Below are positions 14,965 to 21,575 of a stretch of DNA of 37,941 nt, piece after piece. The DNA is from Clostridiales bacterium (lineage in GTDB: Bacteria; Bacillota; Clostridia; Christensenellales; UBA3700), in contig JAAVHS010000019.1 in the NCBI GenBank assembly GCA_014799575.1, positions 1 to 37,941 of the forward strand, written 5' to 3'. The notes under the pieces were generated by a model that was not told the DNA's origin, ran no database searches, and saw only the letters and a list, made by a program, of their open reading frames with translations. Each line of letters opens with the position of its first letter. Position 1 is the first letter of the stretch. A program made the position numbers and the translations under genes.

Positions 14965-14996
14965 AAAGAGCAAGCAAGACGCTTGCTCTTTTTTGA
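14965..14996. terminator. Rho-independent terminator after rnc
   Basis: AAAGAGCAAGC-aagac-GCTTGCTCTTT, perfect 11-bp stem plus T-run (A-run on the other strand). Confidence 0.88.
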
Positions 14997-15072: not shown

Positions 15073-15199
15073 AAAGTATACATTTCCTGACCGAAGAATT
15101 TCGACACTGAAAAGTCAAAATTCGCGATAGTTAGACATAAATATCATAACACACAATAATTTTTTATTCAAGTGCTTTTAGTCAGGAAATGTATACTTT
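15073..15199. repeat. Perfect 19-bp inverted repeat (89-bp spacer) upstream of the 2090-aa surface protein gene
   Basis: 15073-15091 AAAGTATACATTTCCTGAC; 15181-15199 GTCAGGAAATGTATACTTT, its exact reverse complement. Confidence 0.93.
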
Positions 15200-15208
15200 T
15201 CCTGACTA
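15179..15208. promoter_or_regulatory. Near-perfect 30-bp palindrome containing the right inverted-repeat copy (operator or recombination site candidate)
   Basis: TAGTCAGGAAA-TGTATACT-TTTCCTGACTA; 14 of 15 mirrored positions are complementary. Confidence 0.8.
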
Positions 15209-15238: not shown

Positions 15239-18200
15239 ATGGATATAAAAAAGAAGAAATTAAAGTGGTATATTGCGCTGCCAGCGTTGATTATTGTATG
15301 CTTGGTAATGATGCTAAGCGCATGGATTTTAGCGTTTAATTTTAATAATGAGAATAATTCGGTTTATGCTTTAACAAATACTAGCAATGCTGTTATTGCC
15401 GGTAATGGCGAGGAATTTTGGGACAGCGCAAGTGGAACGTTTAATAGCGTTGTGACTAATGATCTTATGACAAAATTATTTAACGGTGAAGAGCCTTACG
15501 ACTATATCAATAATAATGGCATTGACGAATTTGGCAGTAAAGTTATTCAGGCTTCTACTATAAATTCAAGGGTTAATAATTCAGAAAACGGTCTTATTGT
15601 AAAACTTGGCGGATTGGAATGGATGGTTGTTTCTTTGACTATTGACAACAACAATAATCCTATTGCGACATTGTTTCTTGCAAATGGACTTCCTAATACT
15701 AATACGCAATTTTATTCTGCGGGTGGGCATAGAGGCGATGATGTTTATAGCGCGAGCACATTAAGACAAGCCACTTTGAATAATGAAAAATTTCAACTAT
15801 TTGCTCAAGGAAATTTTGCAACTCAATATTTAGTACAACCTAAAAATATTGCATATCAACAAAATCAAACTTATAGGTCAAAGGGTGGCACTTATCATTT
15901 GGCAAACGAAGCGCTTTCAGATTTTTCTTCCGGTTGGGGTAGTAAAGGAAATTACAATTCTTCATATTCAATTCGCGGATATAGCTATAATGCATGGGGA
16001 GATGATTATATTTGGACACCATCTCTTACAGAAGTAGGTTCAACCAATTATGTAACAACAAACAGTATTTGGATGATTACAAACACTCAAAGGAAAGCGA
16101 CTAAAGGTACAGATATAGCTTCTTGGACTCGTTCGGGGATGCAAAACTCTTATGATGGTACTTATGCGTTGAATGCGGAAGGCAATGTTACTAATCCTTG
16201 GCAATATAGATATGGTTTGCTTAGACCTGCAATTCATCTAAACTTAAACGGCGTTAAAAATAACTCCGCCTACACTTATAATGACCCATTGAACGTTTCA
16301 ACAGCAATATATAATGGGGCAGGTCAAACGATATTTTCTCTTACGCAAAAACCCGATTGGTATACCACTCATTTTGAAGACGACAATATATTCTCTTATG
16401 AGTTTTATGCGCAGAATGCTATTGTAAACGAAATGAAAGATGCCGGAGAATATTGGGTTAAAGTTGAAATCAAACAATCATTCATAAATCAAGCGCGAGC
16501 AAACGGACAAGACGCATATTTTCGTGGAACGGCAAATACGACTTATGCAGGACAGACAGAAACGAATACCATGCGTTGGTTTAAGTTTACAATAAACAAA
16601 AAGAAAATTGACGTTGACAGTAGTTATAGACTAGACGACTACGGAAATCTTGTAGGAGAGATAACGGCAACTTCGCCGTTTTATCAATGGGATATAGACA
16701 ACAATAAGACTCCGCAGTTTGGTTTGCAATATCTCGTAAACGGAGTTTGGTCAACGAGCGTGCCGCAAAATGCAGGACATTATGAAGTGCGAGCGTACAT
16801 AATAAACGCCGATAATTGCAACTATGAGATTAATAATGCCGGACAAAAACAAATTTATATTGAGCCAAGACCGGTTACAGTTCCGCATTTTACTTATGCG
16901 GGAATTGACCCCAACTATATTTCGGGAACTGTAACAACCGTGCCGTATAACGGTGAAAGGCAAACGTTTATACTTGTCAACAACGTTGACAATACCGCGC
17001 TTTCGGATATCAGCTCGGATTATACTACGACGGGCGGTTTCAGTATTTCGGGTTCTCAATTTTCCGCTCAGAACGTAGGCGACTATACCGTTACGTTGAG
17101 CCTCGCAGACCCTGCAAACACGGTGTGGGCGGATGCAAGCAATAATCCGTCGGACACAAGAACGATTACGCTCAAAATTACGAAAGCTCCGCTTACGGTC
17201 GAATTTGAAAACGATACAGTGACAAGTTGGGAAAAAGGAGATAGAGAGTATATTTATATCAACGTCAGTGGCGCGTTGACGGGCGAAACGCCTGATTTGA
17301 ATATAACTTACACGGAAGGCGGAGGAAGTTCAAGCAATGCAAATTGGGAAGTTGAATCTCGAAATGGCGACACTATCCGAATAAAAGTGAATCCGGAGAC
17401 TTTATCAATCGGTACGCAATATACCTTAAACGTTGCGCTTTCCAATAGGTCGGTAAATGACAACTATACGCTTGACAACGACCCGACGACGTCTTTTACG
17501 TTTGTTATTTTGGCGTCTACTATTAGTAATATACCTATTCAGTGGCAATACGAAAACTCCCTTTTAGGAGCGGGTAACGCTACTGCAGGAATCGAGGTGA
17601 ATTACAACGGGTATCCTTATACCTTCTCGCTAAAAGAAACGGACTTGCCAAGAGGACTCAACGTGGCATATTCTTCAACTCGAACGGCAACGAATGCGGG
17701 AAGTTATTCCACAACAGTTACTTTTACAGCGCAAGAGGGGTATTCGCTTGCCGATGAGTACAATCGTCCATTCACAATAAATTGGACTATTAAACCTATT
17801 GAGTTTGACCTTGCGACGATAAGATGGCAGTCCAACCCAACGTACAATGGCTCTCTTCAAACGGTAGACCCAACGAATTTGCCCGATTGGCTTACAAGCG
17901 TAGAGCCGCCTTCGGCGTCAAGTAAACGTAAGATAGAACCCGGGGATTATGAGTTCACTTATAAAATCGTCGCCGATAATAATCATATATTCGTCATTTC
18001 AACTATGCCGTCGGGAGATAGCGCAAGAATTCTTGAAGGCTCTACCGATAGAACTGCCGAGATTACGCATAGTTGGAAAATAGAAAAAATCGTCATTGAA
18101 GTATCTAATTTCGACGGAAGATGGTCAAGCCGCTCTCATACGGACGGCAACGGCATCGTTTACTATCTGAAAGTGCCCAACGTATATTCAAGTTTTGAAG

Positions 18201-21200
18201 ACCAACTTGAACTTAAATATTACAACTCGCCAAATTTCGTTGAAGAAAACGAGGTCGATTTAATCAACGGCTTTACGGTAAACACCAGCGACGCAGAGAC
18301 GTACTATATTAAAGTGTCTTTGAGAGAGGGATGTCAAAATCATTATAGAATTTATAATGAGAATCAAGACTACGATTACGCTTGGATTTCAATTCGAGTC
18401 GGCGGAAATTATATCTATATAGATATTACGGTAAATCAAAGTGAATTTGTTTACAACGGAAGCGCGCGCCCTGTTGACATTGTTGCGCAAGGCGAAACTC
18501 CGATAATTACTTATTACAACGGTCTTTCCGAGAGCGACGGAGTTTTATCGAGTGCGCCAAAGGACGTTGGACAATATCTTGTTACGATTTCTTTTGAAGA
18601 CGAAACTTGTATTCCGACGATTAGAACGCTTACTCTTAACATAAGCGCGCTTGAACTTTCAACGGATGGATGGAATAGCGCAAGCGGAAGAACTGCGCCG
18701 ACAGTCAACGTTATTGCAAGCGCAACAGATTTGGCAGTTGACGTAAATACTCTATTTGTATATAAAGTTTTTGACGCAAGCGGAGCGCCTGTTGATATAA
18801 ATAATCTTGCATACAACACGGCTTATACTATCAGTATAGAGATTGCGGAAAGTGAAATCGGAAACGTACATTTCGCTGATGACGCGGAGAGGGTATTAAG
18901 TTTTAGGACAGAGATAGACCCTGAAAACCCACCGCAAAAAATCGCGAAACCGAATTTTGTAAAAGACGTTTATATGTGGACGGGCGATGATATCACTTTT
19001 GAAATTGCCGACTGGGATAATTACAGTCAGTGGCTGTATATAGAGGAAACCGACGGAATTTCGCTTCTTACGCAACAAAATTGCGATACGTATCATATTA
19101 CGTTGAAATTTATAGACAGCGTCAATTTCCAATGGCTTGAAGACGATACCAACGACGACCTTGTCTTAGAATATAGAATTATTCCAAGAGCGCTTGATTT
19201 GCCGCAAATAGACGATGAAATCAAATACAACGGCGAGGAAGTGAATATTTACGACCATATATCGCCGTCAGGCAACTGGGAAAGATGGGTGGTTGAAGTT
19301 TCCGGAAGTTCGCTTGAAACTAATGCGGGAAAATATAGTTTGACCTTCAAACTTAATCCTGATTTTGCAGACAGTATTGGTTGGTCAAATACGTTGACGA
19401 CAACTCCTCAAAGCGGCGTTACGTATGCTCTCAATGATGACGGTGAGATTGAAGTAACAATAAATTGGGAGATTAAACCTGCTAGAATAACGGCAGTTTG
19501 GAATACCGAGGGCGAAATACCGACTTTGAGCGGACTGAGCGAAGAGCAAAGTCAGTTGATAGAATACGTGTATACGGATAGCGAGGGAAGCGTCGTTGAA
19601 GACGTGACGTCGCTTGAAGCGGGTACGTATACGGTGACGGCAAGGATAAAGAGCGAGTACGCGGGCAACTACGTATTCGAAGACGTAGACGGACAAGTTT
19701 TGGCGAACGCGACTTCGACGGAAAAGTCTTTTGAGATAAAGGCGGAAGAGCCTGAGAATCCCGACGAGCCGATAGTTCCTGTCGACCCGACAAACCCTGA
19801 AGATCCCGAACCGCCTGTGACAAGTTTTGACTTCAGCAAGATACTTGACGCGATTAAAAACAATTGGCAACCTATTCTTAGCATTGTCAGCATATTGCTT
19901 ACTATCATATTTATGAGCAAGGGTATTGGCTATGCTGGCAAGAAAAAGAAGGCGAAGAAGACTATAGAGAAGAGATATACCGCATACTACGTAATAAGCG
20001 GAGTAGGCTTGTTCGGCTTACCGAATACTACTTGGACGGTAATCGCTTGTATACTTGCGGGAGTGGCTGTGCTTGCGTTTATCTTCATGCTATTGCAAAA
20101 GAGAGCTTATAATAAAGCGTTGGAAGAAATGGAGGACGCGAAAGAAGATTACAATAGGAATATGTTCATGCAAGGTAATATGAATGGCGGTATGGGTATG
20201 AACGGCGGAATGGGTATGGCAGGACAAGCGGGAGTAGTATACCAACAACCGCAGTTCGCTATTGAAGATATGCGCGGAATGATAAACGAGGCAATGTCAA
20301 ATATGTTGCCAACTGTGACGCAATACTTACCGCAACAAGCGTCGGTGAACGACGAACTCGTTCAACAACTCATTGACCAAAACGAGCGCAACGAAGAGAT
20401 TATTCGCAATATGGCGCAAGAGCACGAAATGCTTATGCAGAAGTTTGCCGAGCAACAAAAAGAAAGCGTTGACGAAGACGTAATCGAGAAGTTGGTCGAG
20501 AAACTCGCTAAGCAACAAGTCGCGGTAGAGAAAGAGGCTGAAAAGGAAGTCGCTTCGGCAGTCGTCAATGAAAAGACTCTCGAAGAGTTGAAAGAGACGA
20601 TTAGAGAAGAAATTCAGACTCAAATGACCGCCAAAGCGGAGAAAGCCGAAAAGGACGAGAAAGACGAAAAAATCGAGATGCTTTTGAGGGCAAACGAAAA
20701 TCTAATGCACAATCAAGAAATCTTGATGGAGAAACTCGCTAATCAAGAGAAAGCGTTGGAAGAGAAAATGGCGGTTACGACAAACGCGTCTTCAAGCGAA
20801 AAGTCTTCTATAGAAATGGAAAGACTTAGACTTAATCAAGAAATGTTGATGCATAGAATAAACGACTTGGCAATGAACACTGCTCTCAACAGCAGACAGC
20901 AATTCGTACCTATCATGCAACAACCGACAGAGAGAATAATCGAAAAGCCCGTCGAGAAGATAGTGGAGAAGGAAGTCAAGGTCGAAGTCCCCGTCGAGAA
21001 GATTGTCGAGAAAGAAGTCGTCAAGGAAGTTCCCGTACCCGTTGAAGTCGAGAAAATCGTCGAGGTAGAGAAAGTAGTTTCTATGCCGGTTGAGAAACCC
21101 AAAAAGGAAGTCGCGCCAAGACTTACGCTCGACGAGGCTTACGCGAAGTTGTCAGCTACGCAAAAGAAGATTTTCGATACGTTGAAAAACTATGCGATGA

Positions 21201-21511
21201 GCAAAGATAAGTGCAAAGAAAAGAAGTCGACTTACTTCACGGTATTAGGACAGTCTACGGTCAATCCGTTAGTCAAATTGACAATCAAGAAAAACACAAC
21301 GGTCGCAATGTTCAAGATGGAAGACGAATACTTTAAAGACATTCGCAAGAACGCAGGCAGTGACGGCACAAAGATGAAAGTCAAAGAGACGGAACTCATT
21401 GTCGGCGACAATCAAGCACTCTCCACCGCAAAGGAAATGATTGACCTTCGCGAAGATCAAATCGAACGGTATAATGAGTATCTCAAAGAACAAAAATCTA
21501 TGAGGAAGTAG
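15239..21511 (+). CDS. 2090-aa membrane-anchored surface protein: N-terminal signal/TM, DUF6273-like N-terminal domain, multiple MBG/Ig-like modules, two TM segments, coiled coil, PVEK repeat, conserved C-terminal domain
   Basis: N-terminal MDIKKKKLKWYIALPALIIVCLVMMLSAWIL; early block ending RYGLLRPAIHLNLNG; repeated IxKAPLTV / IKPIEFDL / IIPRALDL / IKPARITAV module boundaries; TM block WQPILSIVSILLTIIFM and TWTVIACILAGVAVLAFIFML. SD GAGG at 15230. Confidence 0.88.
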   Translation: MDIKKKKLKWYIALPALIIVCLVMMLSAWILAFNFNNENNSVYALTNTSNAVIAGNGEEFWDSASGTFNSVVTNDLMTKLFNGEEPYDYINNNGIDEFGSKVIQASTINSRVNNSENGLIVKLGGLEWMVVSLTIDNNNNPIATLFLANGLPNTNTQFYSAGGHRGDDVYSASTLRQATLNNEKFQLFAQGNFATQYLVQPKNIAYQQNQTYRSKGGTYHLANEALSDFSSGWGSKGNYNSSYSIRGYSYNAWGDDYIWTPSLTEVGSTNYVTTNSIWMITNTQRKATKGTDIASWTRSGMQNSYDGTYALNAEGNVTNPWQYRYGLLRPAIHLNLNGVKNNSAYTYNDPLNVSTAIYNGAGQTIFSLTQKPDWYTTHFEDDNIFSYEFYAQNAIVNEMKDAGEYWVKVEIKQSFINQARANGQDAYFRGTANTTYAGQTETNTMRWFKFTINKKKIDVDSSYRLDDYGNLVGEITATSPFYQWDIDNNKTPQFGLQYLVNGVWSTSVPQNAGHYEVRAYIINADNCNYEINNAGQKQIYIEPRPVTVPHFTYAGIDPNYISGTVTTVPYNGERQTFILVNNVDNTALSDISSDYTTTGGFSISGSQFSAQNVGDYTVTLSLADPANTVWADASNNPSDTRTITLKITKAPLTVEFENDTVTSWEKGDREYIYINVSGALTGETPDLNITYTEGGGSSSNANWEVESRNGDTIRIKVNPETLSIGTQYTLNVALSNRSVNDNYTLDNDPTTSFTFVILASTISNIPIQWQYENSLLGAGNATAGIEVNYNGYPYTFSLKETDLPRGLNVAYSSTRTATNAGSYSTTVTFTAQEGYSLADEYNRPFTINWTIKPIEFDLATIRWQSNPTYNGSLQTVDPTNLPDWLTSVEPPSASSKRKIEPGDYEFTYKIVADNNHIFVISTMPSGDSARILEGSTDRTAEITHSWKIEKIVIEVSNFDGRWSSRSHTDGNGIVYYLKVPNVYSSFEDQLELKYYNSPNFVEENEVDLINGFTVNTSDAETYYIKVSLREGCQNHYRIYNENQDYDYAWISIRVGGNYIYIDITVNQSEFVYNGSARPVDIVAQGETPIITYYNGLSESDGVLSSAPKDVGQYLVTISFEDETCIPTIRTLTLNISALELSTDGWNSASGRTAPTVNVIASATDLAVDVNTLFVYKVFDASGAPVDINNLAYNTAYTISIEIAESEIGNVHFADDAERVLSFRTEIDPENPPQKIAKPNFVKDVYMWTGDDITFEIADWDNYSQWLYIEETDGISLLTQQNCDTYHITLKFIDSVNFQWLEDDTNDDLVLEYRIIPRALDLPQIDDEIKYNGEEVNIYDHISPSGNWERWVVEVSGSSLETNAGKYSLTFKLNPDFADSIGWSNTLTTTPQSGVTYALNDDGEIEVTINWEIKPARITAVWNTEGEIPTLSGLSEEQSQLIEYVYTDSEGSVVEDVTSLEAGTYTVTARIKSEYAGNYVFEDVDGQVLANATSTEKSFEIKAEEPENPDEPIVPVDPTNPEDPEPPVTSFDFSKILDAIKNNWQPILSIVSILLTIIFMSKGIGYAGKKKKAKKTIEKRYTAYYVISGVGLFGLPNTTWTVIACILAGVAVLAFIFMLLQKRAYNKALEEMEDAKEDYNRNMFMQGNMNGGMGMNGGMGMAGQAGVVYQQPQFAIEDMRGMINEAMSNMLPTVTQYLPQQASVNDELVQQLIDQNERNEEIIRNMAQEHEMLMQKFAEQQKESVDEDVIEKLVEKLAKQQVAVEKEAEKEVASAVVNEKTLEELKETIREEIQTQMTAKAEKAEKDEKDEKIEMLLRANENLMHNQEILMEKLANQEKALEEKMAVTTNASSSEKSSIEMERLRLNQEMLMHRINDLAMNTALNSRQQFVPIMQQPTERIIEKPVEKIVEKEVKVEVPVEKIVEKEVVKEVPVPVEVEKIVEVEKVVSMPVEKPKKEVAPRLTLDEAYAKLSATQKKIFDTLKNYAMSKDKCKEKKSTYFTVLGQSTVNPLVKLTIKKNTTVAMFKMEDEYFKDIRKNAGSDGTKMKVKETELIVGDNQALSTAKEMIDLREDQIERYNEYLKEQKSMRK
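16585..19740 (+). repeat. Tandem Ig-like (MBG/YDG-type) protein modules, roughly ten
   Basis: Recurring module-junction strands: INKKKIDVD, IEPRPVTVP, ITKAPLTVE, IKPIEFDLA, IEKIVIEVS, ISALELSTD, IIPRALDLP, IKPARITAV; recurring YNG(S/E) near module starts. Confidence 0.75.
20928..21100 (+). repeat. Expanded PVEKIVEKEV protein repeat in the full-length paralog
   Basis: TERIIEKPVEKIVEKEVKVEVPVEKIVEKEVVKEVPVPVEVEKIVEVEKVVSMPVEKP. Confidence 0.8.
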
Positions 21512-21530
21512 TATAGTGTGAATAGTGATA

Positions 21531-21563
21531 AAAAAGAGCAAGCGGACTGCTTGCTCTTTTTTA
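21531..21563. terminator. Bidirectional Rho-independent terminator between the surface protein gene and the convergent GDPD gene
   Basis: AAAAAGAGCAAGC-ggact-GCTTGCTCTTTTT; A-tract and T-tract on either side. Confidence 0.88.
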
Positions 21564-21575
21564 TTGTAGTAAAAA

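Follow-up and report, generated by a model that had tools for sequence, protein, structure and literature searches.

A probable invertible promoter, one of 20-odd similar elements in the genome, before a giant surface-protein gene of an uncultured gut clostridial lineage

Whether the DNA segment in front of a giant surface-protein gene can be inverted to switch that gene was the question raised by the window, the whole 37,941-nucleotide stretch of clostridial DNA analyzed here. A preliminary description of the window had reported a perfect 19-bp inverted repeat with an 89-bp gap, its end 39 bp from the start codon (ATG, 15239), and had placed promoter hexamers in both directions within the spacer, the leftward pair with an additional TG; the repeat, its spacing and the hexamer positions all proved exact (Table 1). 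Its proposal that the segment may flip to switch the gene is supported by flipped sister copies, a pair of copies in OFF and ON orientation, matched recombination cores and a candidate recombinase. The window element is very probably an invertible promoter (inverton) flipped by a serine recombinase encoded elsewhere.

The arms of the repeat are distinctive. The 19-mer had 0.00 expected occurrences in dinucleotide shuffles of the window, and exact inverted repeats of at least 15 nt with a gap of up to 200 bp were limited in the window to the element and one hairpin (21528-21564). The right arm (15181-15199) is half of the near-palindrome GTCAGGAAATGTATACTTTTCCTGAC. Upstream, the hairpin following rnc would shield the element from upstream transcription and keep the OFF state silent. 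The protein encoded downstream has an N-terminal signal/TM segment, a large ectodomain, a TM region near residue 1560 and a cytoplasmic coiled coil, and it had no Pfam or NCBIfam match.

Table 1. Features of the predicted switch and its surroundings in the window.
Feature	Position	Strand	Remarks
Terminator-like hairpin 3' of rnc	14965..14991	+	11 pairs, then T run
Putative distal recombination site, 19-bp arm AAAGTATACATTTCCTGAC	15073..15091	+	core GTATAC; exact inverted copy at 15181-15199
Predicted invertible spacer, 89 bp, 127-bp type	15092..15180	.	strong promoter directed away from gene (OFF) as assembled
Weak rightward promoter-like pair TAGACA-17-AATAAT	15132..15160	+	not kept in other cassette types
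Conserved leftward promoter TTGAAT-17-TG.TATGAT	15143..15171	-	would face gene only once inverted
Putative gene-proximal recombination site, 26-bp near-palindrome GTCAGGAAATGTATACTTTTCCTGAC	15181..15206	.	
2090-aa surface protein gene, proposed switch target	15239..21511	+	ORF and translation

The element is not a single-locus feature. A search for further copies of the 19-mer, a check named in the preliminary description, was run genome-wide and found many: 41 forward and 36 reverse matches with up to two mismatches in the 1.75-Mb genome, where the reversed control of the 19-mer had none. The 26-bp site with up to three mismatches gave 34 forward and 34 reverse matches, compared to 0 for its reversed control. 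Twenty-seven places in addition to the window were extracted from this genome, and a complete site pair was detected in 23 by scan; the genome contains 20-odd near-identical elements, nearly always before a surface-protein gene. Their spacers belonged to the 127-bp type of the window, to a 116-bp type or to one of a few further types, and the window's spacer was conserved in most copies of the 127-bp type (84-100% identity to a reference copy), in the same orientation relative to the gene. Nearly all copies were followed by a conserved 5' UTR and then by a gene starting MDIRKRKLKGYIALS... or similarly, and N-terminal paralogues of the 2090-aa protein stood downstream of most of the other copies. 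Several contigs stopped inside or beside an element, as expected because the element is a repeat. The site was present in 13 of 17 genomes of the genus; among 297 sampled genomes of the order, the only one outside the genus with many sites was G157, from the same family. In this sister genus the elements (L240-L243) were longer and were bounded on each side by a full 30-bp palindrome (GTGTCAGAAAAAGTATACTTTTTCTGACAC or a variant). A divergent cassette (L033, C28:22175-22297) had its strong promoter directed toward a gene outside the surface family, whose product has a zinc-ribbon N-terminus.

The direction of the promoter was consistent among elements. Relatives and all cassette types had a strong promoter equivalent to the leftward one of the window. 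In the window spacer, the score of the leftward promoter was matched by 0.003 of dinucleotide shuffles, vs. 0.08 for the rightward pair. In scans, the 116-bp type yielded TTGCCA-18-TGGTATAAT, and the 118- and 107-bp types both yielded TTGCAA-17-TATAAT, in each case normally directed away from the gene. A rightward pair resembling TAGACA-17-AATAAT was absent from the 116-, 118- and 107-bp types, and on this comparison and the shuffle result the rightward pair was rejected as the working promoter. In about 90 of 101 elements, among them the window copy, the strong promoter pointed away from the gene, and the window gene was probably assembled in its OFF state because this conserved promoter faces away from it. 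ON and OFF denote here the expression states predicted from orientation. The window element consists of short inverted repeats around an intergenic promoter, one hallmark of an inverton. One cassette of the 107-bp type (L165) has an internal terminator-like hairpin facing the gene, which would keep its OFF state silent.

Orientation was evaluated by comparing each spacer, with the gene placed on the right, to a reference copy from its own genome; the census comprised the elements chosen for extraction, of which 101 were complete, and the N-rich copy L029 was unreliable. Most spacers shared one orientation, and six were reversed: L014 and L019 in the window's own genome, L123 (G002), L175 (G010), and L185 and L190 (G015). 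In L175 and L190, which had 600 bp of assembled sequence on each side, the order of the flanks was unchanged and the spacer alone was reversed, exactly between the cores; L123, L185, L014, and L019 lay near contig ends. Within the 107-bp type of G005, G003, and G014, three elements (L160, L166, and L209), all near contig ends, were flipped as judged from their conserved upstream flanks. About 10 of the 101 complete elements faced the gene; this count includes L033, whose orientation was judged solely from its promoter. Seven of these ten ON-type copies were near contig ends, where repeats can produce chimeric joins, which counts against the inverton reading. The comparison with related assemblies named in the preliminary description revealed reversed cassettes between unchanged flanks in L175, L190, and L123, and both orientations between the same flanks were detected for these sister copies and for the pair L021 and L014. 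These two copies, at the ends of contigs C12 and C4, share 335 bp at 99.4% identity, a stretch that starts at the gene-side site and enters the same coding sequence, and their 127-bp cassettes have two base differences and opposite orientations relative to the gene (OFF vs. ON). The simplest reading is that the pair represents one locus in both states within the sampled population, although two recent duplicates could also account for it. L014 and L019 were also considered as two-gene elements; this was dropped in favor of one long, real gene joined to a flipped cassette end. No flipped form of the window copy was seen, and its orthologue in G002 (L066/L116) had the same, OFF orientation, a further point against the reading; we infer that the window copy flips as well.

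The 6-bp cores of the two sites, read from the outside inward, were identical within the element in all 101 cases. This included the variant cores GTGTAC, GTACAC, GTCTAC, and GTATGC of G010 and G015. Matched cores favor recombination because strand exchange needs identity between the sites, which independent operators would not.

The window lacks a recombinase gene, as described previously: its contig had no PF00589 or PF00239 match, and candidates lay on other contigs. The genome search for a recombinase that had been named as a check detected serine recombinase candidates beside sister elements. Of the 13 site-bearing genomes of the genus, 11 encode a small PF00239 serine recombinase (about 198-211 aa), which was detected in none of the four site-free genomes (Fisher p = 0.006, kinship ignored). 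G001 (90% complete) and G013 (70%) contained sites, and a recombinase of this small serine family was not detected in them. At nine loci of the genus (two each in G000, G002, G006, and G015 and one in G010) the recombinase gene lies across an element from the surface gene, begins 94-151 bp past that element and faces outward; the window's own genome has two copies, each adjoining a sister element. In G003, G004, G005, G011, G012, and G014, the stretches extracted around the recombinase genes had no site, which, as with G001 and G013, counts against the proposed explanation. The inverton reading is supported because the occurrence of the recombinase follows that of the sites and because it adjoins an element in nine loci. 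The strong promoter was aimed at the recombinase in eight of the nine loci by script and in the ninth (C3 of the window's own genome, L011 = L214) by promoter scan, and the OFF-facing promoter should transcribe the recombinase because its gene sits outward of the element.

The recombinase contains a PF00239 domain (E 1.7e-28), and the motifs YARVSxxDQ and DRLGRN, kept in 13 of 13 aligned members, identify it as a small serine recombinase. Its closest solved relatives were Sin and gamma-delta resolvase, followed by Gin; its AlphaFold model was poor (pLDDT 58). It falls outside the Mpi family (NF009949), with scores of 47.5 and 42.1 bits vs. a cut-off of 272. Homologues in other genera of the family also adjoin promoter-sized inverted repeats, with GTATAC sites in G157 (L240), with CAAAATGTACAC... 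in G096 (L244) and with different letters in G275 (L245), the last two having a lipoprotein-like gene on the other side. Enzyme-site pairing is supported because the repeat letters change along with the enzyme across genera. The small serine recombinase is likely the invertase of these elements, and we infer that it catalyzes the inversion. A 303-aa tyrosine recombinase (G000:C15:138603-139091) was common to only six genomes of the genus.

Two explanations that involve no inversion were weighed. The competing model of the preliminary description, a fixed promoter between two operators in which a repressor bound to the 19-bp repeats acts by looping or roadblock and the copies form a regulon, would account for palindromic sites before a paralogous gene family and for the rightward promoter-like pair. 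It leaves unexplained the copies whose spacer is flipped between native flanks, and it is very improbable given also that the strong conserved promoter is directed away from the gene, that even variant cores agree between the two sites of an element and that the sites are accompanied by a serine recombinase rather than a known repressor. We consider it equally improbable that the element is a dispersed short repeat, either MITE-like or part of duplicated 5' regions, with the flipped forms being ancient insertions in the opposite orientation or assembly artefacts. Near-identical, scattered copies that are often at contig ends, and that have 5' UTR and signal-peptide sequence in common, are consistent with such a repeat, but the flanks of L175 and L190 keep their order while the spacer alone is reversed exactly between the cores, the studied copies hold a promoter and are nearly all directly before a gene, and other genera show this layout with repeats of other letters.

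Other explanations accept inversion and differ in the enzyme or in the range of products. Inversion by a tyrosine recombinase, either an Xer-like enzyme of about 355 aa or the 303-aa enzyme, is unlikely. The first is present in nearly all genomes of the genus, with and without sites, so that absence gives no argument against it, and in G001 and G013 the sites occur in genomes where the serine recombinase was not detected; the tyrosine recombinases are nevertheless disfavored as the invertase, as the ~355-aa type also occurs in four site-free genomes, the 303-aa type is limited to six genomes, and the serine recombinase adjoins an element in the loci read, where neither tyrosine recombinase does. 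There is a small chance that cassettes are, in addition to being inverted, excised or exchanged between loci; a symmetric AT at the center of the core and a palindromic site on the gene side would permit this. L025 (C19:39829) consists of an upstream flank, one site and a gene start without a cassette, and L014 and L019 have gene starts on both sides; however, L025 contains N's and ends 97 bp later, and the joins in L014 and L019 are at contig ends, where an assembly artefact is the simpler reading. The lone site of L025 lies at 1516-1645 (C19:39815-39944), with several N's, and could be an excision product or an assembly artefact.

The sequence directly shows the many copies, the flipped forms, the matched cores and the promoter direction, as well as where the recombinase lies and that it co-occurs with the sites. 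In the inverton mechanism that we propose, two GTATAC-core sites bracket the 89-bp segment with its one strong sigma-70-type promoter, and the serine recombinase would cut both sites and reverse the segment. In the assembled state the promoter would be directed away from the 2090-aa gene and the rnc terminator would stop read-through, leaving the gene OFF; after inversion the promoter would face the gene and turn it ON. The genome would then contain 20-odd single-gene switches, mostly OFF, and where a locus also bears the invertase gene, the OFF-facing promoter would be directed into that gene. It is conceivable, and we suggest it tentatively, that the invertase is under its own invertible promoter such that turning a surface protein ON turns the enzyme off and stabilizes all 20-odd switches. 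If this feedback operates, which we regard as somewhat doubtful, the system may be a genome-wide surface-antigen switchboard with the invertase itself under an invertible promoter.

This kind of system is already known. In Proteus mirabilis, too, a recombinase gene and the operon controlled by the MR/P fimbrial switch are divergent, so that the layout alone is not unprecedented. In a literature search, no described system combined an invertible promoter and a serine recombinase in Clostridia. In Bacteroides fragilis, the serine recombinase Mpi acts on 13 dispersed invertible regions that control surface structures (PMC4747536). The present system likewise pairs a single (candidate) serine recombinase with many dispersed promoters and surface control, but it has 20-odd copies, each before a single gene for a giant surface protein, and its invertase scores 47.5 bits, far under the NCBIfam Mpi cut-off of 272. 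The 38 mpl/P35 lipoprotein genes of Mycoplasma penetrans are each under promoter inversion and form three clusters (PMC10502178); that system also has a large surface-protein family with promoter inversion per gene, whereas the loci described here are scattered, each between unique flanks, and a candidate for the recombinase was identified. For Firmicutes_A genomes of a defined gut community, the median number of invertons was three, and nearby invertases were generally not placed for drive by the inverton promoter (PMC11892184). The Clostridia inverton groups of that study resemble the present one in their short inverted repeats, embedded promoters and nearby recombinases; they differ in that 20-odd of one group occur here, which is striking vs. 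a median of three, and in that the invertase is placed for promoter drive, so that the layout would be unusual if it works as drawn. By sequence, the Sin and Tn552 Bin3 resolvases were the closest solved structures (PDB 2r0q, E 3e-30), with Gin-type invertases weaker, although those resolvases act on resolution sites rather than on inverted site pairs. Copy number and invertase wiring are the unusual aspects. The findings describe a large co-existing set of promoter switches for giant surface proteins, with a candidate enzyme, in an uncultured gut clostridial lineage, and the recurrence of the invertase, flipping promoter and surface-protein layout, with differing repeat letters, in several genera makes enzyme-site co-evolution and feedback in phase variation directly testable.

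The surface genes themselves varied between close relatives. G002 appears to come from bank voles, and the L066 record (isolate Mgla_MAG_0-bin_8) is, judging from its name, probably part of the bank-vole MAG set described in PMC7511399. The window gene (15239-21511) and that of L066 (10964-17593) are orthologous surface genes at the same locus, with 63% identity over residues 1-52 and 94% over residues 394-2090. Residues 53-393 of the window protein, in the N-terminal ectodomain, had no match in the L066 orthologue and resembled the paralogues at L031, L016, and L010 (38-41%), which suggests domain exchange among family members. Element pairs of G000 and G002 (e.g., L009/L109 and L030/L110) had orthologous upstream flanks at about 14 loci (92-99%), and at nearly all of these the downstream genes lacked any long match of at least 80%. 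The surface genes appear to have been swapped between loci in G000 and G002; the L009 gene matched that of L110, although the upstream flank of L110 pairs with L030.
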